A stretch of 53,081 bases of DNA, from contig NZ_LWSK01000032.1 in NCBI RefSeq assembly GCF_001642955.1, positions 1-53,081 of the forward strand, read 5' to 3'. Below, in pieces: positions 1 through 48,256 of the stretch (position 1 is its first letter; each line of letters opens with the position of its first letter). The notes beneath the pieces were generated by a model. The model saw only the letters and a list, made by a program, of their open reading frames with translations, did not search any database and was not told the origin of the DNA. Source of the stretch: Rubripirellula obstinata. GTDB taxonomy: Bacteria > Planctomycetota > Planctomycetia > Pirellulales > Pirellulaceae. The translations under genes and the position numbers were made by a program.

Positions 1-429
1 CGGAATCACAACTGGCGGCTACCAATGCTCCGTTTCAACGCCAGTTCCAATCTTCTTCAGCCACGATCTCCGCTGCGGGCTTGCCCCGGCGGGATCAACG
101 AATTTCGCTCGATCGCGCTCTTGATCGCGATGGGGGTAGCCAAGTCGTTAGCTCCGCCGGGACAAGCCCGCAACGGAGGCCTACGTGAGAGTACCCTTTC
201 GAATAATATCTGCGGTTAGTAGTAGCTTCCAGTTGCCGCTCCGTCCGGGGCAAGCCCGGCGGAAGCACTCAACGTCGCGGTGAGAATGAAACCTGCGCAA
301 ACGAGAACTGATGCAATACCAAAGATTTAGCGGTCCAGCCAGCAGCTGTTACCGCTGAGATATCGATTTAATCGACAAGCCGGTCAGCACCCGAATCATG
401 CCGCCCCATGTTTGTCAGAGCTTGACCCG
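1..429. other. Gene-free stretch with GC-rich inverted repeat
   Basis: No convincing coding sequence is visible. Positions 68-94 and 152-178 form an imperfect inverted repeat (about 24 of 27 positions pair) built on a GCGGGCTTG / CAAGCCCGC core. A related partial copy lies at about 232-266. The short open frame at 25-219 runs through this repeat and has no protein-like character. Confidence 0.6.
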
Positions 430-1197
430 CTAATTCAAACTGAAAGGCGGCGGAAACTGATCTGACTTTCCACCGGCATTCTTGAAACTACTCTTCAAAC
501 CAGTCGGGCCAGACATCGCTTGCTCTTCGACTGAAACCGAATGCAATTGGATTTTGCCGCTTTTTAGCAATTCGATCAGCGCCTCGGCACGATCGTCAAC
601 GTTGGGCTGAGCCAGTAATTGCAACTTGGACTCGACGTCGAACGGAAGCGTGTACGAAATGATGTCTGTGATTGGCCCCAGCCCCATTTGACCTGCCATC
701 AACTCGTGCAGGTTTTGCTGAACATTGGCTGTGGGCGGAATGATGTTTGCGAATTCGTTCAGTAGTTCCTGCTTCAGTTTCAGCCGCCCGTTCGCTCCGG
801 TGGGCGAGTAAAAATCTTGATCGACTTCGACTTCCGCGATTCGAAAGGGACGTCCTGTGTCCAGCTCTTGAACAATTTTGGCGCGGCGAATCCCGACCAA
901 CAGAATGTTGTGCTTTTCACTTTCGACCTCCGCATGTGACACAATTCGCCCCAAGCAAACCGTCGATGCGACCGGCGGCCCCGATTGTGGCACCGTGGCA
1001 ATGCCGCCGGTCAACGTTGCCATGGCAACCAGACGATCGGTCGAAAGCGAATCTGCCAACATTTCGCAATAACGCGGCTCAAGAATATGAAGCGGTTGCA
1101 TCGCGTGCGGAAAGACCACTAAGTCCGGCAGCGGAAATAGCCGAACTTTTGAATCGAAGTCTTCGGGCAATCGAGTCACATCGTCAAGGTTATCCAT
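430..1197 (-). CDS. LON substrate-binding domain protein
   Basis: A 255-residue protein consisting of the N-terminal substrate-binding domain of Lon (LON/PUA-like fold) without the AAA+ or protease domains. The family signature is visible in the first 50 residues: VRLFPLPDLVVFPHAMQPLHI, then EPRY, a typical Lon N-domain opening. A second conserved block around residues 80-110 (CLGRIV, NILLVGIRRAKI) also fits. Stand-alone LON proteins are common and poorly characterised; a role in substrate recognition or protein quality control is inferred. The C-terminal 30 residues are Gly/Ser/Pro-rich and probably disordered. It is the last of the minus-strand genes at this end of the window, 59 bases downstream of the Bax inhibitor-like gene, so co-transcription is possible. 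Confidence 0.88.
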   Translation of the reverse strand: MDNLDDVTRLPEDFDSKVRLFPLPDLVVFPHAMQPLHILEPRYCEMLADSLSTDRLVAMATLTGGIATVPQSGPPVASTVCLGRIVSHAEVESEKHNILLVGIRRAKIVQELDTGRPFRIAEVEVDQDFYSPTGANGRLKLKQELLNEFANIIPPTANVQQNLHELMAGQMGLGPITDIISYTLPFDVESKLQLLAQPNVDDRAEALIELLKSGKIQLHSVSVEEQAMSGPTGLKSSFKNAGGKSDQFPPPFSLN

Positions 1198-1256
1198 CGC
1201 GTCCTCAAATGGTCGCTGTATCCAAACAGTGAAGCTGTTTAATCATTCATCGATAC

Positions 1257-2003
1257 TCAATCGTCACTGGCAAACATCATCAAGATCCGCAAGACGTACC
1301 AGAACAGCAACACGACTGATGAAAACAGCGCCAGCGACGCGGCCACATGTTGGCTGCTGTGATAGTGATGGATCACGTTGGACGTGTCATACAAGATGTA
1401 ACCAACGGCAAGTGCCACCATCAGGGCGCTGAATCCAAGGCCGAACGAAAAGCCGAAAAAGATGCCGGCGACGATCGCACCCATGGCTACAAATCCGGCC
1501 ATCGCCAGGTACTTGCCCCAGCTAGCCAAGTCTGCACCGGTGACGAAGACAAACGCGGTCAAACCGATGAAGCTGATCCCCGTGATCGCCGCAGCCATGA
1601 CCGGCAATTGCGGTTCGCCCATGACGCGAATGCACATGTAAAGCATCGGCAGCAAAATCACTGCTTGTGCCACGACGTACAGGCCAAGCCCGGCGTATTG
1701 CATTGGTTTGGAAGTATCGCTGCTGGCCCAAGCTCTTGCCATCCAGGAAACGCCCATAAAGATGCCCAGGACGACAAGCCATCCCATTCCGCCGAGCATT
1801 CGCCCGACCAAGGCTTCCATCGTTGCCGCAGGCACGACGGTAAATAGAACCGCCTCAATTGCGATCAACGCCAAAATTGCGCCGGTTAGGTGTGCATAGG
1901 TTCGACGAATAAAACCGATTCGTTCGGCATCAAGCGAGATACCGAATTCGGCGGGCTGGTCCTGAGTGTGGACCGAATACGGATTCGATTTGTCAAATTG
2001 CAT
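1257..2003 (-). CDS. Bax inhibitor-1/YccA family membrane protein
   Basis: A 248-residue integral membrane protein of the BI-1/YccA (UPF0005) family. About seven hydrophobic segments are visible, with the family-like ending GYILYDTSNVIHHYH followed by a final helix (ASLALFSSVVLLFWYVLRILMMF). Bacterial members are thought to act as pH-sensitive ion leak channels or to modulate the FtsH protease; nothing here decides between them. The open frame extends upstream to 2102, but the Met at 2003 (MQFDKSNPY) starts the family-like cytoplasmic tail. The extra upstream residues are unlike the family, so I place the start at 2003. Short intergenic distance to the LON gene downstream suggests one transcript. 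Confidence 0.9.
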   Translation of the reverse strand: MQFDKSNPYSVHTQDQPAEFGISLDAERIGFIRRTYAHLTGAILALIAIEAVLFTVVPAATMEALVGRMLGGMGWLVVLGIFMGVSWMARAWASSDTSKPMQYAGLGLYVVAQAVILLPMLYMCIRVMGEPQLPVMAAAITGISFIGLTAFVFVTGADLASWGKYLAMAGFVAMGAIVAGIFFGFSFGLGFSALMVALAVGYILYDTSNVIHHYHSSQHVAASLALFSSVVLLFWYVLRILMMFASDD

Positions 2004-2104
2004 CGTTAGTTTCTTGTCTTCGTGTGGTGAGGTGTGATATCCGACCCTATCATACGCTAAACAGCGTCGCTCGAGGGATACAGAATCGGCCGCATAGCCC
2101 AAAA

Positions 2105-2173
2105 GTAGGCCGTAGCGAGTGACGGCAGCGCTGTCGAAAAATGCCGTAACTCGCTTTACTCGCTACGGCCTAC
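2105..2173. repeat. Family A palindromic repeat (GTAGGCCGTAGCGAG)
   Basis: The 15-base end GTAGGCCGTAGCGAG at 2105-2119 pairs exactly with CTCGCTACGGCCTAC at 2159-2173; the interior pairs only partly. It lies between divergent genes (BI-1-like and peroxiredoxin-like). Other copies are at 6857-6932, 36211-36284 and, as half copies, 36377-36407 and 52854-52884. Confidence 0.9.
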
Positions 2174-2216
2174 GAAAAAGCTCATCCGCCGAACCAACTC
2201 TACCCAGGAAAACCCG

Positions 2217-2984
2217 ATGAAGAATCTTGTCCGAAAATTGCTGCTCGCCGTTCCCGCTTCCATGATAGTGCTGGGGGCTAGTGAAGCTTTGTCGCAGCAG
2301 ACCGAAGTTGCTTCGCCCGACGCAAAGTCGCAATCGAGTCTTGCCGAGCAACTTGCCGCGAAGGCCGCAGGATTTGCCGAAACGGCCCCGCCGCAACTCC
2401 GCCAGGCATTTTCCAAAGGCGTCGATATCGTCCGAGCCACTGGAATCGAACAGTCGGCGAAACAGGTCGGCGACATGGCCGTCGATGCCAAACTGGTCGG
2501 CTGGGATGGCAAAATGGTTCAATTGAGTGACATGTGGAAGGAATCGCCCATTGTCTTGATGTGGTACCGCGGCGGATGGTGCCCGTATTGCAACATCCAA
2601 CTCAACGCGATGCAGCGGAGCCTAAACGAAATTGAAGGCGCAGGTGCCAAGCTGGTCGTGCTGACTCCGGAGCTGCCCGAGAAAGCAAAAGAAACGGCCG
2701 AGGCGAACAACTTAGGTATTGTCGCGTTGCATGACGAAAAGAATGCAGTGGCCGATGACTACGGAATCTTGTTCGACCTGCCCAAGCCAATCCTGCCGAT
2801 CTATCGAGACAAACTGAAAATGGGAACCTACAACGGTCACAGCAAAATGGAGTTGCCTTTATCAGCGACCTACGTGATCGATCAGTCCGGAAAAATCACC
2901 TACGCATTCCTGGACGCGGACTACAAAAACCGAGCCGAACCGGCCGAGGTGATCGCCGCGGTCAAGACCGTTTCGGGCAACTAG
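2217..2984 (+). CDS. Secreted peroxiredoxin-like (AhpC/TSA) protein
   Basis: A 255-residue thioredoxin-fold protein. A signal peptide is apparent (KLLLAVPASMIVLGASEALSQ, cleavage near residue 25). An alpha-helical linker of about 60 residues follows, then an AhpC/TSA-type domain from about residue 85. The active site is GGWCPYC with Cys122 and Cys125, the arrangement of the peroxiredoxin-like alkyl hydroperoxide/redoxin group. Predicted role: thiol-dependent peroxide reduction or disulfide exchange outside the cytoplasm. The ATG at 2217 is preceded by an AGGAAA-like ribosome binding site. It is transcribed alone, divergent from the BI-1-like gene. Whether it is a peroxidase or an oxidoreductase cannot be settled from sequence. 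Confidence 0.85.
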   Translation: MKNLVRKLLLAVPASMIVLGASEALSQQTEVASPDAKSQSSLAEQLAAKAAGFAETAPPQLRQAFSKGVDIVRATGIEQSAKQVGDMAVDAKLVGWDGKMVQLSDMWKESPIVLMWYRGGWCPYCNIQLNAMQRSLNEIEGAGAKLVVLTPELPEKAKETAEANNLGIVALHDEKNAVADDYGILFDLPKPILPIYRDKLKMGTYNGHSKMELPLSATYVIDQSGKITYAFLDADYKNRAEPAEVIAAVKTVSGN

Positions 2985-3146
2985 TCCTGTCACCCGTCGC
3001 CGTGAAGGGTTTCTAAGTTGTTTAGGAACGTACGACTTTTTATCGTCGCCTTTCGCTCGGGACGTCGCATCGGTTACTGCGAGTTAGGCCCGTAGGGCCG
3101 GCAGCTCCCTGCCGGGTGCGTGAGCACCCGGATGGCTGCCCCACAT

Positions 3147-15240: not shown

Positions 15241-18200
15241 TTGAAACAAATACTGATGAGCATCATGAGACATTTTGCGGTTGCAGCTCTTTTTATGGCT
15301 GCTGTCACAAACCTGGTTGCCGCGGAACCGCTGCGGGATAGTTTTCAATCGCCCCCCAATTCAGCCAAGCCGCATACGTGGTGGCACTGGATGAACGGCT
15401 ATGTGACGGCCGACGGCATCACGAAGGATCTGGAAGCGATGCAGCGTGCCGGGGTTGGCGGTTTCCAGGCTTTTCAGATTGAATTTGGGATGGATTCCGG
15501 GCCGGTTAAGTATCTGAGCAGCCAATGGCGCGAGCTGATGACGCATTCGATTCAAGAGGCCGAGCGTCTGGGGCTGGAGGTCTGCTTTCACAACTGTGCC
15601 GGATGGTCTAGCAGCGGCGGACCATGGATTACACCGGAGTACGCGATGCAGGAGGTTGTCTGGACCCAGCAACAGGTGCAGCAACAGATGCCGGGGGCCA
15701 AGAGGATCGACGTGAAGCTGCCACGTCCCAAAAATTTGCGGGATAACTATTTCCGAGACATCGCTGTTTTGGCGTTCCCAACCCCGAAATCAGAACGCGG
15801 TGACAAAACAGGTTTTCGCATCGACAATTGGAAAGCCAAAGCCGGTTACGAACGCGACAATGACATTCAAGCGGACACTCGCAAAGTCGATTCAGGCGAT
15901 CTGATTGAGTTGAACTCGATCATTGACCTGACCGAAAAGATGGACGCCTCCGGCCGACTTCGATGGAACGCACCCAAGGGCGATTGGACGATCGTCCGCT
16001 TCGGGCATGCGGTCTGCGGACTTCGCAACCGTCCTGCACCCAAAGAAGGACGCGGAAACGAATGCGATAAAATGAGCAAGGCCGCTGCAGAGTGGCACTG
16101 GAAAAACACGGTGCAAAAAGTGATTGATGATGCAGGACCGCTGACGGGCAAGTCATTCAATAGCGTGCTGATCGACAGCTACGAAACGGGGCAGCAAAAC
16201 TGGACCCGCGGCTTCGACGACGAATTCCAGCGCCGCATGGGCTATGACGTGATCAAACATCTGCCCGCCGTGACGGGGCGTGTGATCAATGATTTGGAAT
16301 ACACCGAGCGGTTCCTGTGGGATTTTCGACGTGTCGTTGCGGACCTATGGACCGAAAACTACTACGGTCACTTTGCCAAAATGTGCCACGAAAACGGCCT
16401 GTTGCTTGCGTGTGAGCCTTACGGTTTGCCGGGCAACTTGGACAACTTTCAGGTTGCCGATATGTCGGACATCCCGATGGGTGAATGGTGGGCCAGAAAG
16501 TCATCGGGACTGCACAACAGTTCGTCAAAAATGGCGGCGTCCGCCGCACACACCAATGGTCGCCGATTCGTGGGCGCAGAAGCCTTTACCGCTGGCCGAG
16601 CCGAAGCTGCGTTTGTGAATCACCCCTACGTGTTAAAAGCGCAGGGCGACTACTTTTTCTGCAAGGGCATCAACCGATTTTACTTCCATTCGTTTGTTCA
16701 TCAGCCCTGGGGCGACGATGTTCTGCCCGGCATGACGATGGCCGTATGGGGATTTCAAAACCACCGCAACAATACGTGGTACGAACAGGGGCGGGCGTGG
16801 AACGAATACCTGGCCCGCAGCCAATACATGTTGCAGGAAGGAACCTTTCAGGCAGACCTATGTTATTACCCCGGCGAAAATGCGCCGCAGGTCGCGGCAC
16901 TGCGCAAGGATATGCAACCGGCTGTCCCCGCAGGATATGACTACGACACGATTTCGAAAAACAACTTGATGAAGTTGACTGTCGAAGACGGATACGTGGT
17001 GCTGCCGGGGTTGATGAAATACCGGTTGCTGGTGATGCCCGAAGGTCCGGTGCGGCTCGATGTGTTGGAACACATTGAAGGTTTGGTGAAGGCAGGTGCC
17101 CACGTGGTTTGGGCAAAACCACAGCTTACACCCGCTTTGCAAGATTATCCCAAAGCGGATCAGGTCGTGCGTGCCGCCGCAGACAAAATGTGGGGCGACT
17201 GCGATGGGAAAACCGTCACCGAAGCCAGCTTCGGCAAAGGAAAGATTTACTGGACCGATTCGCTGCCAGAGATTCTTGCTTCGATGGACGTTCTTCCGGA
17301 TGTCGAGTTCCAGTCGGCTCAAGCCATCGCACCCACGCTTTATGAAGGCAATGGCTATGAATGGATTCATCGCAAGATCGAATCTGCGGATGTGTATTTG
17401 ATTTCCAACCAACAGGATGTCGCTCGTCAGGTCGAGGTTGTTTGTCGAGTAACCGACCGTGTGCCTGAGTTGTGGAACGCGGAGACCGGTTCGATCCAGC
17501 AGGCACCGATCTATCAATCCACCCAAGATGGACGCACGCTGGTAAGACTGTTTTTGGAACCAGCCGAATCCGTGTTTGTGGTCTTTGACGAACAGGTCAA
17601 AACGCCCAGCGTCGTGGACGTTTTGCACAATGGGAAAAGTTCGTTCACGACGTCAAAGAAAGACTCGCAAGTCTTGCAGATTCACCAAGCCGTCTACGGA
17701 GACTTGAACGGCGATTCCAGCCGTCAGTTGAATGTCACCGCGACGTTAAAGAAACGGGTTAACAATCATTCACTCCGTGCGGTCGTCAACAATCGACTGG
17801 CGGGGCGTGACCCAGCACCCAAGACAAAAAAACAATTACGAGTGGTTTATTCACTCGGTGACAACAAGTCCACGATCTTGGTTAATGAAAATGAAATGCT
17901 CAATCTAGGAAGCGAAACTGAAATGGTTGCTGCAACGCCAGAACCCGCCGTGCTGTCGAAATCTGAAAAAGGTTCCGTTCTGACAGCGATGGAAACCGGC
18001 GATTATGAACTGGTCTATTCCGATGGATCGCGACGATCGGTTCAGGTTTCATCGATCCCGAAACCGGTCGATCTGTCGCGTGATTGGAACCTCAACTGCC
18101 CTGATGGTTGGGGACCGTCGCAGATCGAATTGGATCAACTGATTTCATGGGCGGACCACAGTGACCCCGACCTGAAATACTTTTCCGGCACTGCGGTCTA

Positions 18201-18654
18201 CACCAAGCAGTTCGATGTGCCGGCCAATCGACTGGGCGACGACCACGCGGTCACGCTCGATCTTGGCGAGGTGCAGGTAATGGCGGAAGTCATTCTTAAC
18301 GGGAAAAACCTGGGGATCCAATGGAAACCGCCCTTCAAGGTGGATGCGACAGGACTGCTAAAAGGCAAGAACAATCAGCTTGAGGTCCGCGTGACCAACT
18401 TGTGGGTCAATCGCATGATTGGCGACGAACAGTATCCCGCGACTGACCGTTACATCCCGGGTCGTAAACCGCAAGAGCATTTGATTGAGAAGATTCCCGG
18501 ATGGTTGAAGAGCGGCAAACCGCGTCCGGCAACCGAGCGGAAGTCGTTCACCACCGCCCGGTTCTACGACCAGGATTCGCCGCTGGTTGAGTCCGGGCTG
18601 GTCGGTCCGGTGCAACTTCATTTTGGGATTCGCAAAGCGATATCCCATCAATGA
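15241..18654 (+). CDS. GH106-like alpha-L-rhamnosidase, secreted
   Basis: A 1137-residue secreted enzyme. The signal peptide is followed by the GH106 opening PPNSAKPHTWWHWMNG and GITKDLEAMQRAGVGG. Further GH106-type blocks are CFHNCAGWSSSGGPWITPE, DSYETGQQNW, FVGAEAFTAG, HSFVHQPW and HRNNTWYEQGRAWNEYLARS. The C-terminal 200 residues form a galactose-binding-like sandwich (YFSGTAVYTKQFDVP, NGKNLGIQW, LEVRVTNLWVNRMIGDEQ). GH106 enzymes are inverting alpha-L-rhamnosidases. The frame opens at TTG (15241); ATG 15256 or 15265 may be the real start. Last gene of the GH78-DUF1080-GH106 operon, 24 bases after DUF1080. Its 3' end is nearly identical to the pseudogene tail at 35504-35829. Confidence 0.87.
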   Translation: MKQILMSIMRHFAVAALFMAAVTNLVAAEPLRDSFQSPPNSAKPHTWWHWMNGYVTADGITKDLEAMQRAGVGGFQAFQIEFGMDSGPVKYLSSQWRELMTHSIQEAERLGLEVCFHNCAGWSSSGGPWITPEYAMQEVVWTQQQVQQQMPGAKRIDVKLPRPKNLRDNYFRDIAVLAFPTPKSERGDKTGFRIDNWKAKAGYERDNDIQADTRKVDSGDLIELNSIIDLTEKMDASGRLRWNAPKGDWTIVRFGHAVCGLRNRPAPKEGRGNECDKMSKAAAEWHWKNTVQKVIDDAGPLTGKSFNSVLIDSYETGQQNWTRGFDDEFQRRMGYDVIKHLPAVTGRVINDLEYTERFLWDFRRVVADLWTENYYGHFAKMCHENGLLLACEPYGLPGNLDNFQVADMSDIPMGEWWARKSSGLHNSSSKMAASAAHTNGRRFVGAEAFTAGRAEAAFVNHPYVLKAQGDYFFCKGINRFYFHSFVHQPWGDDVLPGMTMAVWGFQNHRNNTWYEQGRAWNEYLARSQYMLQEGTFQADLCYYPGENAPQVAALRKDMQPAVPAGYDYDTISKNNLMKLTVEDGYVVLPGLMKYRLLVMPEGPVRLDVLEHIEGLVKAGAHVVWAKPQLTPALQDYPKADQVVRAAADKMWGDCDGKTVTEASFGKGKIYWTDSLPEILASMDVLPDVEFQSAQAIAPTLYEGNGYEWIHRKIESADVYLISNQQDVARQVEVVCRVTDRVPELWNAETGSIQQAPIYQSTQDGRTLVRLFLEPAESVFVVFDEQVKTPSVVDVLHNGKSSFTTSKKDSQVLQIHQAVYGDLNGDSSRQLNVTATLKKRVNNHSLRAVVNNRLAGRDPAPKTKKQLRVVYSLGDNKSTILVNENEMLNLGSETEMVAATPEPAVLSKSEKGSVLTAMETGDYELVYSDGSRRSVQVSSIPKPVDLSRDWNLNCPDGWGPSQIELDQLISWADHSDPDLKYFSGTAVYTKQFDVPANRLGDDHAVTLDLGEVQVMAEVILNGKNLGIQWKPPFKVDATGLLKGKNNQLEVRVTNLWVNRMIGDEQYPATDRYIPGRKPQEHLIEKIPGWLKSGKPRPATERKSFTTARFYDQDSPLVESGLVGPVQLHFGIRKAISHQ

Positions 18655-21948: not shown

Positions 21949-23163
21949 CTATTCGCGGCCCCGGTTGGATTCTTTCTGGCGCGACTCGTTTCGGTGTTGA
22001 TAGAAATCATATCCATTAAGAGAATTTTTTAACTCGCGCGGCAGCGTCACCTTGTTCTTTGGGTGATTTAGCAAGTCCAACCTAAAATGCTTATGCGTCG
22101 CCAAGAAAGGCATGCTGCCCTCGTCTTTCAAGAAGTCGTTTTGCGTGACAAGCCACTGCTGTAGCTTCTGCTTTAGCTCTGACTTGATTTCACGATACGC
22201 AGGATCAGCCGCAAGGTTGTTTTGTTCGTGCGGGTCTTTGATCATATCGAACAGTTCTTCTTCCGGAACGTTGGGATGCTGCTCGGCACCCATTCTTAGA
22301 AACGCGGTCAACGCTTCGCCCGCTTTCTCCTTGCGCTGGACAACTTCCATCGCGTTGTAGTTTCGAGTGTACTTGTATTGTTTGGATCGAATCATTCGGC
22401 CGGGGAAAACATGAGCGTTGATGATGGCCTGGTTCGTCATCACACTATAGACGTATTGATGGTGTGAGTCGGTCTGTCCCTTTAGCAATGATTGCAGGCT
22501 CTTGCCGTCAAAATCCGAGTCAGGTTTTGCACCCGCGATCTCCATCATCGTTGGCAAAACATCGGCAAACGAGACAAGTGCATCGGATCGAGTTCCCGGC
22601 TCAACCACGCCGGGCCAACGAACGACAAAGGGAACGCTCAAACCACGATCGTAAACGGACCACTTCCCAAACCGCCCGTGATCCGACGCGTAGATGACCA
22701 CCGTGTTATCGGCCAAATCGTACTTATCCAACAATGCAAGCGCTCGCTCAAACTCCTCATCGCTATTCTTGACCGCCTGATTGAATTGAGCCTCCGATGC
22801 GCGAGTTCGCGGAGAGTCTTCTTGAAAGCGAGTGATTGCCACTGAGTCCTCGGTGAGCGTCGTTTGTTTCGGGTGTTCGCCGTGTGGATAGTAGCTGGTG
22901 ACCATGACACAAAAAGGTCGCTGGTTGTTTGGGCTACCGCCCGCGAAATACGCTTCTAACTGATCCAGAGGCGTTGCCGGCTTCGTGTACATCTTGGGAT
23001 CACCGGCAGGTTTCTTTGAATGCATTTCGATCGTCCATGGAAACGCACTGCGGGGATTGACGTGAGACTTGCCACACAGGATCACGTCATAGTCCAGATC
23101 TTTCAGATAGTGACAAACCGTTCGTGTGTCCTTAAAGCGAATCGCAAGCGATTCGAGTCTCAC
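21949..23163 (-). pseudogene. N-terminally truncated sulfatase (no catalytic Cys)
   Basis: A 404-residue frame matching the middle and C-terminus of an N-sulfoglucosamine sulfohydrolase-like sulfatase: YLKDLDYDVILCGKSHVNP, VVIYASDHGRFGKWSVYDRG, SVPFVVRWPG, then LFDMIKDPHEQNNLA. The first roughly 100 residues of the family are missing: the signal peptide, the metal-binding Asp pair and the C-x-P/A-S-R formylglycine motif. Only 42 bases separate the frame from the stop of the upstream sulfatase, so the head cannot be hidden in another frame. It cannot work as a conventional sulfatase and lacks an export signal. The remaining frame has no stop, so decay is recent or the product has another use. 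Confidence 0.75.
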
Positions 23164-31580: not shown

Positions 31581-31694
31581 CTGTTCCCTTTGACCGGTTG
31601 ATGAATTCGGTTTTCACGGGGAAGGGCCTATGCGTGTTCTCACTGCCCGCTCTGATGCGGGATCGCAATGACTTTACATTTTGGATGGAAAAAG

Positions 31695-34600
31695 ATGCTT
31701 GCTCGTTCCTTGGTCAGCCCCGTCGGTTTGGTAATCGGATGCCTAGTCGTGGTTCTGGGCGGTTCGGATTTCGCGCAAGCGGACCTGATCGCGCGTTGGA
31801 CGTTTGATAACGACGCCAGCGACAGTTCTGGCAATGGACTCAACGGATCCTTGTTGGGCGGTGCGGCTGCAGGTGTTTCAGATCCTAATCGAAGCACTGG
31901 CGTTTTGGCGTTGGACGGAATCGACGATTACGTTGCTGTCCCTCACAGCTCGCTGCTTGATCTGGGTGGGCAATTCACCATCACCAGTTGGTTTAAGAGC
32001 GAACAGCCGGGCGCGAGCGGCGCGCAGCATCTGCTTAGAAAAATTGGCAGCGCTGGCTCGCCTAACGAAGTCTATTACACGCGAATTCAACCCGGCGGGT
32101 CGCCCTTGCGTTTCAACGTAACCAACAACAACGACAACGGTAGCAATGCCGATATCCCGTTAACGGGCGCGGGACAATTAGATGCATCCACTTGGTATTT
32201 TTTGGCCGCGACTTTTGACGGCACGGCCAATCAGCAGCGCCTCTTCCTAGACGACGTGACCCAGCCCGCCGCATCAATCTCGACGACCAATAGTGCGCCT
32301 GCCGCCTCCACTGGCGAACTGAGAATCGGGCGAGGGAACCCCGGTGGATACTTCGACGGAAGCATTGATGATGTAAGACTGTACGGTCGGGTATTGAGCA
32401 TTTCTGAGCTAGAGACCGTGGCCGACGGGGGCATGCTTGACGGCAACACGGGAATTCTGATCCCCGGGGATTACAACGGTGATCGCCTGGTCGACCTCGG
32501 TGATCTAGAAACCATTCGTGCGGGTTATGGAACGACGTTTGTCTTCGGCGATCTGGAAGTCTGGCAAATCCATTACACGGGGCCACTGACACAGGCGAGT
32601 CAAGCCGTGATTTCCTCGTTGATCGCAACCAGCGTGCCCGAGCCCGGATCCGCCTTGGGGCTGGCGTTGCTGTTTGCCGCAGGATTGATTCGCCGGCGAG
32701 TGCGGCCAGGACGTCATGATTCAGCAAGTGAAGAAGACAGCGGACGCGCGGGGGCCAGCCGACACAATGCGGGGTTTGCCAAAAGCAAAAGATTGCTGGC
32801 TTCGCTATTGGCCATTCTTGCGTTGCCATTTTTTGCTTCCATGGCCGATGCACAAAGCAGCAGCCCCAACATTGTTGTGATTGTTTCTGACGATCACCAT
32901 TGGCGCGACTATTCGTACACCGGCGAAAATAACTTTGTAAACACTCCCAATATTGACACCTTGGCCCGTGAAGGCTTGATGTTCAATCGCGGCTACGTGC
33001 CAATGTCGTTGTGCCGCCCTTCTTTGGTAACGATGTTGACTGGAATGTACGGCGTTCAGAATGGAGTTTACGGGAACGATCCAAACACCCGTCGGGATAG
33101 CGATCCCCTCAACTTAAATAACAGCTATCCAAATTCGGTCGACAATCGAATCATCCGTCGAAACATCCAACACGATGCGACGCTTCCAAAGATGTTGGCG
33201 TCGGCCGGCTACGTCAGCCAGCAAACCGGAAAACTGTGGGAAGGCGATTATCGAAGGTCAGGTTTCACCGAGGGGTTTGTTCGAGATAGCGACCGACATC
33301 AAGACAACATTGCAATCGGACGCCCCGGCGGCGGCCAGAGTTCGGATGTGTCCGAAGTGACGAATTTCGTTGATCGTGCGGTGGCTGACGACAATCCGTT
33401 TTTCGCGTTCTATGCACCCTTCCTGCCGCACACGCCTCACAACCCCCATGCGAACTATCGGGACCGATATGACCCGCTGGTTGCCAGCGGCCAGTTGACC
33501 ACTCACGAGGCTAACTACTACGCCAACATTGACGCGCTGGATGATTCCGTTGGCCGCATCCGATCCCACATTCAAGGCAAGACCGATGCCCGTGGAAACA
33601 ACGTTGACGACAATACCATGTACGTCTACGTGGCGGACAACGGTTGGGATCAGGATCCTAATCGCCAAGGGGAATTGCCAGGAGACAATGGAAAACGAGG
33701 ACCAAATGAGGCGGGGATTCGAACGCCGATTCTGATCTCGTGGAAAGACCAGATCCTGGATGCGCGATCGTTGGAAGCGAAGCTCGCCGACACGTCGCTA
33801 GCCAGCAGCATCGATATCGCGCCGACCATCCTGGCCGCCGCGGGGTTGGCTCCGACCGAGCGCATGGAAGGCGTCAACCTGGCGACGCATCGCCGCGAGA
33901 AAGTGTTCGGGGATATCTATCACCATGATCAGGAAGTGTATGTCAACAACCAGTACCGTGTAGGATCGCCCGAAGATACCCTGCGGTGGCGATGGATGAC
34001 CGAAGGAGATTGGAAGCTGGTGGTCCCCAAAACCGGTTCCGCAGAATTGTATAACTTGGCCGCTGATCCCGATGGTTTAAACAACCTTGCAAACGTCGGT
34101 GCCAATGCGGATCGGGTCGCCAGCATGACCCAGGAAGTCAACGACTGGTACGCAACTAACCGTCCCACGACGATTTACAGCCACGAATTCAACGGATCAG
34201 CAAGCTCGATTCAGGGGACCACCCCCGACGTCATCGATGATGTTGTCGCTTTGAACCAGTGGGAAGTCGGCCCGCAATTTGTCAACAACAACGGCGAGAT
34301 CGCCGGGCGGACCATGGCAGTGCTGCCGTTTACACCGGAGGACGACAAGCGTTACGAACTGCGGACGGCCCTGTCACCGGCGGCCACCAACAACAGCCTG
34401 TCGTGGGTGTCATTCGGTTTCCAAGAGGGTTCCGAAGCAGGTATCGACCCTTCCGCGGATGGCGTCGCATGGGCACGCCTACGCAACGATGCCTCACTAG
34501 ATGATTTGACGCTGCACGGTTTCCCCGATGGCGGCACCGGTGGCGAAGGTTCGGAGTTGTTTTCAATAGACGACCTGACCTATTTCGATAGCTTTGCGAC

Positions 34601-34919
34601 CTTAACCCTCGTTTTGGATACTCGCGACCACGATGAGTCGCTGGCAGGTAGCCAATGGCTGATTGATTTGTTGGCCGATGGTGTCAGCCAGCATCAGTTC
34701 ATCTTTACCGATGGCAACCCGGACATTGGCGGAATCAATCTGGGTAGCTTCACCCTTCCCGGTTCAACGGATCTTGCCGGGCTGGTGGATTACTTTCAGC
34801 TCATTGAAATTCCGACATCCACGTACCAGGTGGGCGTTCCCATTGTAATTCCCGAACCCTCTAGCTTTGCTTTCTTGTTGATGGCGGGGGCGTTTACGCT
34901 TCGACGCCGACGCCGTTGA
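31695..34919 (+). CDS. LamG / PEP-CTERM / sulfatase / PEP-CTERM fusion
   Basis: One open frame of 1074 residues. ATG 31695 gives a signal peptide (LVSPVGLVIGCLVVVLGG) and has GGA upstream; ATG 31668 is the alternative. Order: LamG/concanavalin-like domain (about 30-245; RWTFDNDASDSSGNGLNGS), a dockerin-like stretch (PGDYNGDRLVDLGDLETI, about 255-275), a complete PEP-CTERM tail from 314 (VPEPGS, hydrophobic run, RRRVRPGR), an internal signal-peptide-like segment (RLLASLLAILALPFFASMA, about 366-384), a sulfatase from 388 with C440-R-P-S-L, a second beta-rich domain, and a terminal PEP-CTERM tail from 1051 (VIPEPSS, then RRRRR). It looks like two exported proteins joined head to tail. The sulfatase belongs to the subfamily of 23206-24621. 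A recent frameshift could have created the join. Confidence 0.82.
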   Translation: MLARSLVSPVGLVIGCLVVVLGGSDFAQADLIARWTFDNDASDSSGNGLNGSLLGGAAAGVSDPNRSTGVLALDGIDDYVAVPHSSLLDLGGQFTITSWFKSEQPGASGAQHLLRKIGSAGSPNEVYYTRIQPGGSPLRFNVTNNNDNGSNADIPLTGAGQLDASTWYFLAATFDGTANQQRLFLDDVTQPAASISTTNSAPAASTGELRIGRGNPGGYFDGSIDDVRLYGRVLSISELETVADGGMLDGNTGILIPGDYNGDRLVDLGDLETIRAGYGTTFVFGDLEVWQIHYTGPLTQASQAVISSLIATSVPEPGSALGLALLFAAGLIRRRVRPGRHDSASEEDSGRAGASRHNAGFAKSKRLLASLLAILALPFFASMADAQSSSPNIVVIVSDDHHWRDYSYTGENNFVNTPNIDTLAREGLMFNRGYVPMSLCRPSLVTMLTGMYGVQNGVYGNDPNTRRDSDPLNLNNSYPNSVDNRIIRRNIQHDATLPKMLASAGYVSQQTGKLWEGDYRRSGFTEGFVRDSDRHQDNIAIGRPGGGQSSDVSEVTNFVDRAVADDNPFFAFYAPFLPHTPHNPHANYRDRYDPLVASGQLTTHEANYYANIDALDDSVGRIRSHIQGKTDARGNNVDDNTMYVYVADNGWDQDPNRQGELPGDNGKRGPNEAGIRTPILISWKDQILDARSLEAKLADTSLASSIDIAPTILAAAGLAPTERMEGVNLATHRREKVFGDIYHHDQEVYVNNQYRVGSPEDTLRWRWMTEGDWKLVVPKTGSAELYNLAADPDGLNNLANVGANADRVASMTQEVNDWYATNRPTTIYSHEFNGSASSIQGTTPDVIDDVVALNQWEVGPQFVNNNGEIAGRTMAVLPFTPEDDKRYELRTALSPAATNNSLSWVSFGFQEGSEAGIDPSADGVAWARLRNDASLDDLTLHGFPDGGTGGEGSELFSIDDLTYFDSFATLTLVLDTRDHDESLAGSQWLIDLLADGVSQHQFIFTDGNPDIGGINLGSFTLPGSTDLAGLVDYFQLIEIPTSTYQVGVPIVIPEPSSFAFLLMAGAFTLRRRRR

Positions 34920-35035
34920 TCGAAATCCCAGCATCGAACCTACACGCGCAAAGGGCGCGGACGAGACCCAATCAGCCGCCACAGAAGTCATTTCCAAACG
35001 CCCCCGAACTGATTTGTTCCACGAGCGAATGTCTA

Positions 35036-35829
35036 ATGGCCAGATTGCTGGTTTTCGCCACATCGACTTTTCTGTTTTCGATGGGAGTCGCCGCGAACGA
35101 CGCTTCGGTGGATTGGCAGGCTTAATGGATTTGGCAGGCGGAAGATGGTCCGGCCAACACATGGGTGGCCTTCCGCAAAGAATTTGATTTAAACGAGGTG
35201 CCGCAAAAAAGTCATCGCGAATGCAAGAAGAAACTGACTTTTGATCGCAGTTGGAAGGTCAAAGCGGATCCCCCCTATGCGTAGTACAGCGGTGATACGG
35301 GCAAGAACATTGTGCAGTTCCATGTGAAGTACGACGCTCGCAAATCAATGGGCGTCTGGATGTCGCCGGACTATTCGGATGCCGATTGGAAAGCGGCATC
35401 CGAGAAAGGAATCCCACCAGCAGCACCTTGGTACAACCTGGAAAAGAACGACGTACCCGCGCTGGTGAACCACGGTTTGCAGTTCTATCAAGATTATGGA
35501 AGCCGCCTTATAAACTCGATCTATCAGGACAGCTCAAAGGTAAGAGCAATCAGCTTGAAGTGCGGGTGACCAATCTGTGGGTGAACCGCATGATTGGCGA
35601 CGAATAGTATCCGGCGACTGACCGTTACATGGCGGGTCGTAATCCGACAGAGCATTTGATTGAAAAAGATCCTGGTTGGTTAAGGAACGGAAAACCTCGG
35701 CCGACAACCAAGCGAAGATCATTCGCCACCGCCCGGTTCTACGACCAGGATTCGCCCTTGGTTGAGTCCGGGCTGATCGGTCCGGTGCAACTTCATTTTG
35801 GGATTCGCAAAACGATATCCCATCAATGA
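35036..35829 (+). pseudogene. Chimeric GH78-GH106 pseudogene
   Basis: The 5' part (35036 to about 35509) is a decayed GH78-like gene, close to identical in places to 45893-48256 (compare 35314-35500 with 46466-46650). It has the signal peptide start MARLLVFATSTFLFS, a CAA-to-TAA stop at 35123, an extra A in the A-run at about 35205-35210, an internal deletion of about 300 bases near 35220, and a stop at about 35282. At about 35504-35510 it joins the 3' end of a GH106-like gene matching 18320-18654, with another stop (CAG to TAG) at about 35605 and a normal final TGA at 35827. It is not functional. It records a third GH78...GH106 locus that collapsed by deletion. Confidence 0.92.
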
Positions 35830-36210
35830 TCCGATGTCTTACACACGAACCTCTAATGCGATCGGACATTTCACGGCTTGTCGATTAAAGTGAGCCGCGA
35901 CGCGTGAGCGGCCGGGCCTACCGCATTGCCCGAAGGCCTCACGGCCAGAAAGGTGGCAGGACGCGACGGACTAAACCGTAGCGCTACCGAAGGATTTTGA
36001 CGAATGCCGTCACCGCTGCGAGCATGACCGAGGTTCTTGAGTGGCTTCACATTGCCAACAACGCGAACAACAAACGGGATCCCGCGTTTCCCGCGACGAG
36101 TGCCCCTTGGGAACTGTCCCGAAACAGCTTCCCGGTTTTCCCGTAGCTGATCCCGCCAGGGTTCAGTGAGAGACAAGTGGGTACAGGAACACAAATCGCC
36201 AATGGTTTTT

Positions 36211-36284
36211 GTAGGCCGTAGCGAGTGGAGCGAGTTACGGCATTTGAGCCCCTGCCGTAACTCGCTCCACTCGCTACGGCCTAC
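36211..36284. repeat. Family A palindrome, perfect 31-bp arms
   Basis: Arms 36211-36241 and 36254-36284 are exactly complementary. The half copy at 36377-36407 is identical to the right arm, and the half copy at 52854-52884 is identical to the left arm. Confidence 0.95.
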
Positions 36285-36288
36285 TTTA

Positions 36289-36370
36289 GGAACAGTCCCG
36301 GAATAGCTTCCCGGTTTTCCCGTAGCTGATCCCGCCAGGGTTCAGTCCATGATTAGCTGTACCCGATTGA
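36289..36370 (+). repeat. Family D repeat (CCCGTAGCTGATCCCGCCAGG)
   Basis: A unit of about 75 bases: GGAACAGTCCCGGAATAGC, TTCCCGGTTTTCCCGTAGC, then CCGCCAGGGTTCAGT and GATTAGCTGTACCCG. Very similar units at about 36111-36168, 6706-6810 and 41865-42050. Confidence 0.82.
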
Positions 36371-36691
36371 AGCCCTGCCGTAACTCGCTCCACTCGCTAC
36401 GGCCTACTTTGGGAACCGTCCCGGAATAACTTCCCAGTTTGGTTGAAATCCGAGAAATCGCGTGGACAGACGGGTGAGATTTGGGCAGTTTGGGTAACAC
36501 TTAGTATAGCGATCTGGTCATTCCGCTTTGGCGGCCAACTCGCTGTCAATTCGTTTTGCCCTCCTTTGAAGCATCTTCGTTAAAACAGATTCGGTCGCTG
36601 GTTTGAAAACCGATCGCGATGGTGAACTTGGCCTCACCGACTTTGCCGCTTTCCGAGGAGCATTTGGAACACAGGTTGGTGCCCCATTCCA

Positions 36692-45300: not shown

Positions 45301-45896
45301 ACGTGGAATTCCCTCCCAACTTGGGCGCGCCCAAAAGTGAGGTCATCAATAAACTTGCCTCATGGACGACTTCGCCCATTGATGGAATTCGATACTTTTC
45401 CGGAACAGCAAACTATCAAAAACAGTTCCATGTGCCTGAGAATTGGGTGCAGTCAGATTATTCTATTGAGTTAGATCTTGGCCGCGTTCACGTGATGGCG
45501 AAAGTCATCGTCAATGGAAAAAACCTGGGCGTTTTTTGGAAAGCACCGTTCCGAATCAATCTGGATAAACATGCCAAAGCTGGCGTGAATGATTTGGAAG
45601 TAAGAGTCACGAATCTGTGGCCCAATCGATTGATCGGGGATGAACAACTTCCTGATGATGTAAAAAGGCGGGGACCGAATGTGAAACAATGGCCGGACTG
45701 GCTGTCCCGGGGTAGCCAACGCCCTACGAATCGAATTACTTTTCAAGGGTATAAGCATTGGAGTAAGGATTCGGAACTAAAACCTTCCGGTTTGTTGGGG
45801 CCGGTCCTGGTACGACCCTACGTCCGGGCGGTCGTACAATCTCCATTGGAAACTGCTGATTTAAACCGGATTGATACTACAAAAGAGAACCAATGA
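42348..45896 (+). CDS. GH106-like alpha-L-rhamnosidase, secreted
   Basis: A 1182-residue secreted enzyme, paralogue of 15241-18654. The signal peptide is followed by PPDSAKALTWWHWMNGNVSK, FHNGPGWSSSGGPWVTPD, IDSYEVGTANW, SIAESEAFTSTGGW, YHTYVHQPW and HNTWWEQGKAYMDYVARSQ, all GH106-like. The C-terminal sandwich reads YFSGTANYQKQFHVP, NGKNLGVFWKAPF and LEVRVTNLWPNRLIGDEQ. An inserted beta-rich segment at about residues 760-940 makes it longer than its paralogue. The stop overlaps the start of the GH78-like gene by four bases (ATGA), so the two are translationally coupled. Here the order is GH106 then GH78, the reverse of the 12.1 kb operon. Confidence 0.87.
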   Translation: MKAMKRIFFSITILLVVATANALASDPLKQGFRTPPDSAKALTWWHWMNGNVSKEGITEDLESMKRVGVHGAQLFNVNLGHPPGSTAYLNPEWLDLFKFAAEEADRLGLELAFHNGPGWSSSGGPWVTPDLAMQELVFSEVTHQGGKPFKARLPQPKTQLDYYQDIAILAFPTPKVSEHIHSLDYKTLSGKVRNRLMPESKTIPADAVIRAETLIDLTDRVSDEGLLNWNAPAGQWTILRLGYTPTGARNRPGVVGGQGLECDKMSRKAVDAFWKDGIDPIIQKLGPLIGTAVTKCHIDSYEVGTANWTKDFETEFKRLRGYDCSDFLPALAGYYVESGDVSERFLWDFRRTIGDLMAENYYGRFRELSHQHGMVFSLEPYWGPFDNMQVGEAADVVMAEFWSGVLAFFDSPKFVASIAKLNGSSIAESEAFTSTGGWDQSPATLKAIGDRAWAQGINRFVYHTYVHQPWDAKPGLTLGPFGISFNRHNTWWEQGKAYMDYVARSQFLLQQGQTVADVLVFVGESSPNDTFLVPGIEELGFNYDLIGHNKLAALTVEDGKIYTPFGDAYSILMLPETTWMRPETLGLIRQLAKAGATITGPKPTRSPSLQGYPACDDQLAEMADALWDTGIIRNDPVLDMLQQGTLSPDFRVVRGSDENLDVTHRRAGETEIYFLANSQKNSRVEECRFRVAGKQPEFWDAMTGEISNAAVWHDHGDGTTTVRVQLESEASVFVIFQKPAAASDSIVEVAMNLNRTAPTPLPDLKIVKAQYGTFLPAGLIDVKEIVESRIKNGMLSLNATRSELCQSDPAPGYHKELRVEYQIGDQRAFKYAKERERLEIDANGKGELTILKAVFGKFELGVEGVPSVYPVHDVTDRIESLIDAGKYQIAVDDGLVEGASVVGHRNTLRLVYSSGVETFKQTVAAGKFLKLTQPTPEPTLLRSNRIVTWKTPCPGTLTCKMASGQTVTAEVKSVPAPIELTGSWNVEFPPNLGAPKSEVINKLASWTTSPIDGIRYFSGTANYQKQFHVPENWVQSDYSIELDLGRVHVMAKVIVNGKNLGVFWKAPFRINLDKHAKAGVNDLEVRVTNLWPNRLIGDEQLPDDVKRRGPNVKQWPDWLSRGSQRPTNRITFQGYKHWSKDSELKPSGLLGPVLVRPYVRAVVQSPLETADLNRIDTTKENQ

Positions 45897-48256
45897 ACAA
45901 ATTACTTACAATACTCGCTGCATCGTTATTCATACCTCTATGCGGCTCCGTGAATGCAGAACCGGTTGATTGGAAGGCGCAATGGATTTGGCAGGCGGAA
46001 GATGGCCCATCGAATTCTTGGGTGGCGTTTCGCAAAAACGTCAAACTGGATGCAGTGCCACAGAAAGTGGTCGCGAACATTTCTGCTGACAGTAAATACT
46101 GGATGTGGATCAACGGCGAGATGGTCGTCTTTGAAGGCAGCGTCGCTCGCGGACCAAGTCCGTCCAAGCCCTGGAAACGCGGCAAAGAAGTTTGGAAAAA
46201 GCCACCCGAAGCCAAGCCGTCGAACACTTGGTACGAAGAAGTTGATATCACGCGATTCTTAGAACCGGGCGAAAACACGATTGCGGTGCTGGCTTGGTAT
46301 TGGGGCAACGAAACTCACAAGGGCACCCACATCGATAGCGGCAAAGGCGGATTCATTTTCCAGGCTGACATTGGCGAGAAGAAACTGGTTTCCGATCGCA
46401 GTTGGAAAGTCAAAGCGGATCCCGCTTACGCGATCGACAGTGGCGACACCGGAAAAAACATCGTGCAGTTCCATGTGAAGTACGACGCTCGTAAATCGAT
46501 GGGCGACTGGATGTCACCGGACTATTCCGATGCCGATTGGAAAGCAGCAACCGAGAAAGGAATCCCACCAGCAGCACCTTGGTACAACCTGGAAAAGAAC
46601 TACGTGCCCGCGCTGGTGAACCACGGTTTGCAGTTCTATCAAGACTATCCGGAATCGAAATTCCCGCTGATCAGTGAAGGCCAAGCGATCAGTTGCACGC
46701 TGCCGTTCAACCAGCAGATCACGCCTTATCTTGACATTGAATGCGACGCTGGGCTGGAGATCAAGATCACCACCGATGACCGTCACAATATGATCGACGC
46801 GTTCTATACAACTAAACAGGGCCGTCAAAGCTTTGAGAGTTTTTCATGGATGAATGGTCACAAGGTGATCTATGAAATCCCTGCTGGCGTGAAGATACAC
46901 GGGTTGAAGTATCGCTGGATGAGCGTCGGTAACATGGCCGGTTCATTTCAATGCAGCGACCCATTCTACGAACGTTTGTGGTGGATGGGGCGCAACACGC
47001 TTTTTGTTTGCGCCCGCGACAACTTCATGGATTGCCCCGACCGCGAACGGGCGTGTTGGATCGGCGACGTGTCGGATCAGGCCAGCTATCTGTTTTACTG
47101 CATGGACGATCCGGGACGACAACTGCTGAAAAAAGCGATCCGGGTGACGATGGCGTATAGCGAAGACGGCGTCTATGCCGCGCTGGGGCCGCTGCGTTTG
47201 CGTGAACTTCCTAGCCAGAGTCTGCAGTTTGTGGACCAGTGCATCTGGCAATACTATTTCAACACGGGTGACGAAGAAACGCTGCGATACGCCTACCCGT
47301 ATGTTCGCGAATACTTGAATCTGTGGAGCATCGGTGCCAATGGTTTGCCCAAACGAGAAAAGCGTTCGAGCGATTTTTGGAACTGGAGCGACTGGGGAGT
47401 GAAGAATACGCTCGATCAGGACGTTGTGCTTGATTCGCTGTACTACATGGCACTGAACAGCGCAAAGAAAATGGCGATGGAACTCGGCGAGAAAAAAGAC
47501 ATCGTCTGGTACGACGAGCGTATCGAGTCGATGGACAAGGCTTTCAACAAGGCGTACTGGACGGGCAAGTATTACAGCAGTCGCCCAGGAAAGTTGCAGG
47601 ACGATCGGGCGAACTGCCTGACGATTCTGTCCGGGTTAGCTGACGAGGATAAGCACGATTCGATCGTCGAAAATGTGCTGATCCCCAACCAGTTTTGCAG
47701 TCCGCACTTTGAGTGGATGGTGGAGGAGGCGATGTGCTATGCCGGGCGATACGACGCTGCTCTGACGCGAATGAAAGAACGATATCAGAGTCAGGTCGAT
47801 CGCGAGGGGATGAGCACGTTGTATGAAATGTTCCCCAATGGTGGAACGTACAACCACGCTTGGAACGCGCCGAACACGATTCTTTCCAAGCACATCGCTG
47901 GCATTGAACCGACCGGTATCGGCTGGAGCGAATTTCAGATCTTGCCAAACATGGAACACTTCGCTTCGCTGAAACAGGTGGTTCCAAGTGTGAGTGGAGA
48001 CATCACCGTTGGCCTAGAACAAAAGGAAAACGCTTTCAACCTGGACCTCGTTTCGCCAGATGGAACGACGGCAGTCATCGGTATTCCAAAATCAATCGGA
48101 ACCCTGGCCGAAATCCGTGCCAACGACAAACCGATCTGGAAGGAAGGGCAGTTCATCAGCAGCGGTTTGCAGATCCAGCAAGCAGATGAAGACGACAAAT
48201 ACCTGAAGTTCAAACTCCCCGCCGGCACCTGGAAAATCTCCGCGACGGCTCGGTAA
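45893..48256 (+). CDS. GH78-like alpha-L-rhamnosidase, secreted
   Basis: A 787-residue secreted enzyme, paralogue of 12108-14459. Signal peptide (LLTILAASLFIPLCGSVNA), sandwich domain (WKAQWIWQAEDGPSNSW) and (alpha/alpha)6 barrel. MDCPDRERACWIGD gives Asp380, Glu385 and Asp392 with the GH78 D-x4-E-x6-D spacing; TLYEMF with Glu645 is the candidate base, followed by NHAWNAPN. Its residues 28-250 region has the close degenerate copy at 35036. The start codon overlaps the GH106-like stop, so the two proteins are made in coordinated amounts and probably attack the same rhamnose-containing substrate. Compared with the paralogue it has an insertion of charged residues near residue 85-105. Confidence 0.9.
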   Translation: MNKLLTILAASLFIPLCGSVNAEPVDWKAQWIWQAEDGPSNSWVAFRKNVKLDAVPQKVVANISADSKYWMWINGEMVVFEGSVARGPSPSKPWKRGKEVWKKPPEAKPSNTWYEEVDITRFLEPGENTIAVLAWYWGNETHKGTHIDSGKGGFIFQADIGEKKLVSDRSWKVKADPAYAIDSGDTGKNIVQFHVKYDARKSMGDWMSPDYSDADWKAATEKGIPPAAPWYNLEKNYVPALVNHGLQFYQDYPESKFPLISEGQAISCTLPFNQQITPYLDIECDAGLEIKITTDDRHNMIDAFYTTKQGRQSFESFSWMNGHKVIYEIPAGVKIHGLKYRWMSVGNMAGSFQCSDPFYERLWWMGRNTLFVCARDNFMDCPDRERACWIGDVSDQASYLFYCMDDPGRQLLKKAIRVTMAYSEDGVYAALGPLRLRELPSQSLQFVDQCIWQYYFNTGDEETLRYAYPYVREYLNLWSIGANGLPKREKRSSDFWNWSDWGVKNTLDQDVVLDSLYYMALNSAKKMAMELGEKKDIVWYDERIESMDKAFNKAYWTGKYYSSRPGKLQDDRANCLTILSGLADEDKHDSIVENVLIPNQFCSPHFEWMVEEAMCYAGRYDAALTRMKERYQSQVDREGMSTLYEMFPNGGTYNHAWNAPNTILSKHIAGIEPTGIGWSEFQILPNMEHFASLKQVVPSVSGDITVGLEQKENAFNLDLVSPDGTTAVIGIPKSIGTLAEIRANDKPIWKEGQFISSGLQIQQADEDDKYLKFKLPAGTWKISATAR

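Follow-up and report, generated by a model that had tools for sequence, protein, structure and literature searches.

An internal PEP-CTERM tail in a two-unit reading frame of Rubripirellula obstinata and tandem exported chains in related Planctomycetes

We analyzed a 53,081-nucleotide stretch of Rubripirellula obstinata (the window; contig NZ_LWSK01000032.1), in which a single open reading frame (ORF; forward strand, 31668–34919) holds two complete exported units, a LamG unit and a sulfatase unit, each closed by a PEP-CTERM sorting tail. Our favored reading, with a probability of about 0.6, is an exported polyprotein of two units that signal peptidase and exosortase would cut apart. We found the open frame with its two tails, exosortases in the same genome, and the same architecture in other genomes, from which we infer translation as one chain, its membrane topology, and its cutting. 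Sequence comparison makes it highly likely that a class of such exported chains is real. The ORF probably belongs to it as a chain of two units, with a residual chance of a local accident.

One frame with two tails

In the translation of the window, the frame runs uninterrupted to the stop codon at 34917–34919, giving 1083 amino acids from the ATG at 31668 or 1074 from the ATG at 31695, the start used for residue numbers here. The first unit opens with a signal-peptide-like segment read from the translation (residues 1–29; 31695–31781), followed by a LamG/concanavalin-like domain (LamG_3, PF13385; residues 74–238; 31914–32408; Pfam, E = 3.2e-23) and a dockerin-like calcium-loop stretch that was seen by eye and received no Pfam call (residues 258–279; 32466–32531). 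It closes with the internal PEP-CTERM tail, composed of VPEPGS, a hydrophobic run, and an Arg cluster (residues 314–336; 32634–32702; TIGR02595, 23.8 bits). A linker without in-frame ATG, predicted to form a cytosolic loop (residues 337–362; 32703–32780), leads to a second signal-peptide-like segment, assigned from hydropathy and motif, that ends in ADA before a Q (residues 363–386; 32781–32852). The second unit comprises a sulfatase domain with a putative active-site Cys at residue 440 (PF00884; residues 391–717; 32865–33845; E = 1.8e-34), an SGSH_C domain (PF16347; residues 667–817; 33693–34145; E = 4.1e-09), a C-terminal domain without Pfam match (residues 825–1050; 34167–34844), and the terminal PEP-CTERM tail (residues 1052–1074; 34848–34916; PF07589, 24 bits; TIGR02595, 22.7 bits). 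Both tails exceed the TIGR02595 cut-off of 16 bits, and the signal-like segments before both units were identified by eye and hydropathy. Thus, the sequence-only reading was right that one frame carries two tails and that the tail at residue 314 precedes a signal-like segment and a sulfatase with a tail of its own. The two halves were also considered as duplicates of each other, and this was rejected: only their PEP-CTERM tails align (E = 0.026).

The position of the first tail is exceptional. According to Haft 2006 (PMC1569441), PEP-CTERM tails lie near the extreme C-terminus, with fewer than 10 further residues in 87% of cases; the rare ones that run on much further are suggested to be possibly non-functional, and no membrane segment is found between signal peptide and tail, save in one three-member family. 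Such placement holds for the terminal tail of the ORF and not for the internal one (residues 314–336 of 1074). The R. obstinata genome gave 43 TIGR02595 matches, 41 of which end 14 or fewer residues from the stop codon (the distance was read for 42, the 43rd being the terminal tail of the ORF itself), and a weak match at 15.9 bits (contig C275) is followed by 31 residues. The tail at 32634–32702 is the only one of the 43 with a long chain after it. This single case, together with the mostly terminal tails of Haft, indicates that the internal tail was correctly observed and is as unusual as had been claimed.

The same rarity favors a rival explanation, in which two ordinary neighboring genes were joined here by accident, through recent stop loss, a small deletion, or an assembly or sequencing error, with the class elsewhere being real and this ORF no maintained member of it; we consider this unlikely. 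A pair elsewhere in the R. obstinata genome also speaks for it: on contig C221, a 256-amino-acid PEP-CTERM gene ends in TAG, and its frame runs on into another exported protein that opens with a signal-like segment (L305, C221:12500–17500, positions 391–3051). Only one stop codon separates the two partners, so the pair is one change away from becoming a chain.

If the ORF is translated as one polyprotein, signal peptide 1 would start translocation of the LamG unit, and the helix of the internal PEP-CTERM would halt it with the Arg cluster in the cytosol. The linker would lead to signal peptide 2, which would restart translocation, tail and signal together forming a membrane hairpin, as is suggested by the way in which the basic cluster adjoins or merges with the positively charged start of the next signal peptide. 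The sulfatase unit would then cross the membrane until halted by the terminal PEP-CTERM. Signal peptidase I would cut after signal peptide 2 and exosortase at each PEP motif, yielding two surface proteins, perhaps in the equal amounts suggested by the sequence-only reading; that reading named exosortase, but both proteases would be required. Haft 2006 (PMC1569441) places PEP at the periplasmic face, where EpsH is proposed to cut. The R. obstinata genome contains two exosortase (PF09721) matches, at 86.5 and 59.2 bits.

Tandem chains in related genomes

We investigated whether the architecture recurs in other genomes. In the single-contig genome G042, of the same order, at least 20 ORFs are tandem chains of signal, domain, and PEP-CTERM, in which 54 units meet at 34 internal junctions. 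The latter are what remained of 36 internal pattern matches after two that lay within domains and had neither PEP helix nor second hydrophobic run were dropped; all 34 have a PEP helix and a second hydrophobic run. One of these chains consists of a PEP-CTERM unit and then a GDSL hydrolase, with the enzyme in second place, parallel to the sulfatase of the ORF. Another chain (L188, G042:C1:3717500–3727500) has as many as five PEP-CTERM motifs in one frame, its first unit having no N-terminal part there, and the units between motifs 1 and 2 and between motifs 2 and 3, approximately 262 residues each, are near-identical, which points to recent in-frame tandem duplication as a way in which chains grow. 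Since every unit brings its own signals for entry and exit, stop loss between such genes should be tolerated, and chains could then grow by fusion as well as by tandem duplication. Six other long G042 frames (L192–L197) have one terminal tail each and form no chain.

A wider survey drew on ten genomes, eight of them single-contig and one without any match. Of the 313 PEP-CTERM matches, it covered 76, from the other nine genomes: 46 chosen by eye, among the matches listed, for frames of at least 390 amino acids, and 30 given loci. The tail was truly internal in 11 of the 76, which gives no rate, as the sample was hand-chosen; nine of the 11 were in G042, and a new signal-like segment follows each of these nine. 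A twelfth tail with at least 20 residues after the motif (L112, 21 residues) was judged ordinary. When a junction profile (A1) was run over 199 genomes of the window's family, 29 of the 30 loci examined were terminal, four further long frames were terminal only, and one locus was internal, in G095, where it forms a two-unit chain of the Sec type; this profile yields no base rate, as it scored terminal tails as high as internal ones.

The chains are conserved between species. A three-unit chain of 1,383 residues in G042 was matched at 1e-30 in 19 of 39 relatives, and full-length, stop-free frames of 1,390–1,452 residues were found in six genomes (G296, G311, G334, G328, G059, and G370), two of which, G334 and G059, are single-contig; identity to G042 was 23–68% per unit. 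In 24 of 29 other loci, a single frame contains one or more internal PEP helices with a second hydrophobic run after the helix; four others have a terminal tail only, and one has no PEP motif. The 24 chain-holding loci span 16 genomes (counting G042) and 11 genera, all within a single family. Related units also occur split in G334. In an alignment of 13 hand-picked rows, one of which is cut before its end, the PEP triplet was kept in 12 of 13 at junction 1 (PEH in G059), 13 of 13 at junction 2, and 12 of 12 at the terminal tail. Additionally, exosortases were detected in all 11 other chain-bearing genomes tested.

These two observations bear on a second rival explanation, in which the chain is never cut at the internal tail and remains a membrane protein with two external domains and a membrane hairpin between them. 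The PEP helix with its basic loop and the hydrophobic segment after it would suit a stable hairpin, and the PEP-CTERM helix is itself a membrane anchor (Haft 2006, PMC1569441). However, internal sites retain the PEP triplet and a signal-like second segment just as terminal sites do, which a plain tether would not need, and every chain-bearing genome tested has exosortases. We regard an uncut chain as improbable.

A related kind of fusion occurs in the window's own family, where a PEP-CTERM gene is paired with a prepilin-like gene; the one such gene tested belongs to DUF1559. The pair forms one frame in 8 of the 18 genomes with the gene, representing eight species and two genera (G001, G012, and G019 of the window's genus; G187, G208, G214, G219, and G224 of another). 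A stop codon separates the two genes in nine of the 18, and in the remaining one, G153, no pilin motif was found in the stretch examined. The sequence-only reading had held that homologues always found as two separate genes would refute it; for this analogous pair, fused eight times and split nine times, that was not the pattern. Fusion and separation thus interchange, and the fused condition persists. Among the fused frames, PEP and the pilin motif lie exactly 48 residues apart in five species and 36, 38, or 39 residues apart in the others, and the length changes preserve the frame. The ratio of nonsynonymous to synonymous substitution rates (dN/dS), computed only for pairs above 60% identity and with no value from a few saturated pairs, was 0.2–1.8 in the linkers and 0.03–0.39 in the two units. 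Judging from these sequences, only length and frame are clearly kept in the linkers.

The recurrence of chains and their conservation in relatives speak strongly against error or chance fusion as an account of the class, and less fully so for this locus. The polyprotein reading is accordingly upheld as regards the class: tandem chains recur, are conserved across species and genera, occur in single-contig genomes too, and go with exosortases in their genomes, that of R. obstinata included. It found no such backing for the exact LamG–sulfatase pair, which has no close homologue. On balance, we lean toward the view that Planctomycetes make modular exported polyproteins of 2–5 units, each set between a signal peptide and a PEP-CTERM, that signal peptidase and exosortase (and prepilin peptidase in chains of the prepilin-like type) cut in alternation into surface proteins in fixed ratio, with the internal PEP-CTERM as a functional cut site and no relic. 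The chains are possibly a distinct system of their own, beyond a variant of PEP-CTERM/exosortase sorting.

The junction of this ORF, its two halves, and their surroundings

The linker of this ORF is long. By the measure applied to the other junctions it comes to 34 residues, against a median of 10 elsewhere, tying the longest and exceeding the other 53 of 54 Sec-type linkers, and 53 residues separate VPEP from the next hydrophobic segment, compared with 36–48 in the fused prepilin-type chains. Its length, its odd composition, and the starts that it holds in another frame favor an accidental joining of two genes, but a linker of equal length occurs in the single-contig genome G059 (L281). Codon scores do not distinguish which frame the linker is in. 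A composition mosaic, suggested by low third-position GC in the sulfatase, proved to be an out-of-frame artefact; the values are even, and only the linker is odd.

A third explanation would have the sulfatase made also, or only, by internal initiation in the linker, with separate starts in one frame. In-frame GTG (32700) and TTG (32793) codons are available, and in G042, 23 of the 34 junction linkers contain an ATG, GTG, or TTG (ATG in 11). On the other hand, the ORF linker has no in-frame ATG, and the start scan found no Shine-Dalgarno-like stretch at any start in it. Elsewhere, a start with a Shine-Dalgarno-like 4-mer upstream was found at only 5 of the 34 G042 junctions and 4 of 20 others, which argues against separate initiation as a general rule. 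We consider internal initiation very improbable. That both halves lie in one frame, with no in-frame ATG for a separate sulfatase, also counts against an accident.

The two halves have only distant relatives. The LamG half had no match besides itself at E = 1e-20 in the 199 family genomes, and at E = 1e-15, 13 of 296 genomes of the order matched, self excluded, all over the LamG domain and at 38% identity or less. Of 60 related genomes, 47 hold a sulfatase relative at E = 1e-60, with identities no higher than 46%, and the domain at residues 825–1050 had weak matches in 5 of the 199 family genomes besides its own. Three of the four sulfatase relatives examined are stand-alone genes, and the fourth, L032, continues into a second sulfatase-like domain (G023:C56, 64–2826, reverse strand; a 920-residue frame with two sulfatase domains by eye and without PEP-CTERM). 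A scan of genome contigs gave three loci, of which two are sulfatases without a preceding PEP-CTERM unit and one, L051, has 22% identity. The second unit shares its fold family with the type I sulfatases (PF00884), whose canonical signature is C-x-P-S-R, with an Arg. Unlike this, the signature of the ORF (33012–33026) reads C-R-P-S-L, and the same Leu is found in all four relatives examined; a sulfatase subfamily with this Leu may have a different maturation signal.

Several of our results weigh against a polyprotein. The exact pair has no close homologue (LamG at most 38% identical in the 296 order genomes, sulfatase at most 46% in the 60 relatives), and no PEP-CTERM unit stands ahead of the sulfatase in any of the four relatives examined. 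This absence of a conserved homologue likewise favors an accidental joining. The linker lies at the long end, with acidic residues and an unusual codon-position composition, and a second frame, with ATGs, is also open across it. The copy of the prepilin-type pair in the R. obstinata genome is split, and the fused prepilin-type linkers are near neutral while their units are under strong purifying selection. The signal peptides rest on hydropathy and an AxA pattern lax enough to be passed by every case, which therefore carries little weight. Finally, the sequence directly downstream (34920–36690) is damaged and holds no intact gene. This damage, like a nearby sulfatase without N-terminus, adds to the case for an accident; fused PEP-CTERM chains in the same genus (G001, G012, and G019) and the same family stand on the other side. 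By itself, the evidence on the ORF would leave a polyprotein indistinguishable from stop loss or error.

As for the surroundings, pieces of 34920–36690 match the N-terminal portion of a GH78-type rhamnosidase (45893–48256; 90% over residues 162–252) and the C-terminus of a GH106 rhamnosidase (15241–18654; 82% over residues 1028–1137), so that on sequence grounds the region is a decayed chimera of duplicated parts. Short stretches within 36150–36510 recur several times between genes with similar translated pieces and are perhaps an intergenic repeat family. The sulfatase without N-terminal part (21949–23163, reverse strand; Pfam match from profile position 81) looks truncated and sits approximately 40 bases after another sulfatase gene. 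The cluster at 12108–48256, with sulfatases, GH106 and GH78 rhamnosidases, a relative of GH39-like alpha-1,4-L-rhamnosidase, and a GalA-like beta-galactosidase, probably serves the breakdown of a sulfated, rhamnose-rich polysaccharide.

Known systems and implications

The chains use the elements of PEP-CTERM/exosortase (EpsH) sorting (TIGR02595, PF07589, PF09721), with the same motif, helix, and Arg cluster and with exosortases present, but differ from that system as described in that the tail is internal and is conserved so in many chains. Precedents exist for single exported chains that are cut into several proteins. The nearest, the FbcH cytochrome b/c1 precursor of Bradyrhizobium, is one chain with an internal signal sequence, which signal peptidase splits into two proteins; these are two subunits of one complex, and the precursor has no C-terminal sorting signal and is a single, non-modular case. 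Viral membrane polyproteins alternate stop-transfer and signal segments, with signal peptidase cleaving them at the outer face, whereas the chains described here are bacterial, would use exosortase as a second enzyme, and carry lectin-like or enzyme units. No description of PEP-CTERM polyproteins was found in the open-access literature, subscription papers being mostly outside the search.

Descriptions and annotations alike treat C-terminal sorting signals as terminal, and conserved internal ones suggest that exosortase may act as a polyprotein splitter. Given internal tails, counts of PEP-CTERM genes in planctomycetes would fall short of the true number of products. The chains also provide an unusual test of what exosortase does, since the sizes of the mature proteins would tell directly whether it cuts, and a gene pair that is fused in some sister species and split in others offers a natural experiment on the origin of polyproteins. 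Through such chains, bacteria may obtain several surface proteins in a fixed ratio from a single gene.

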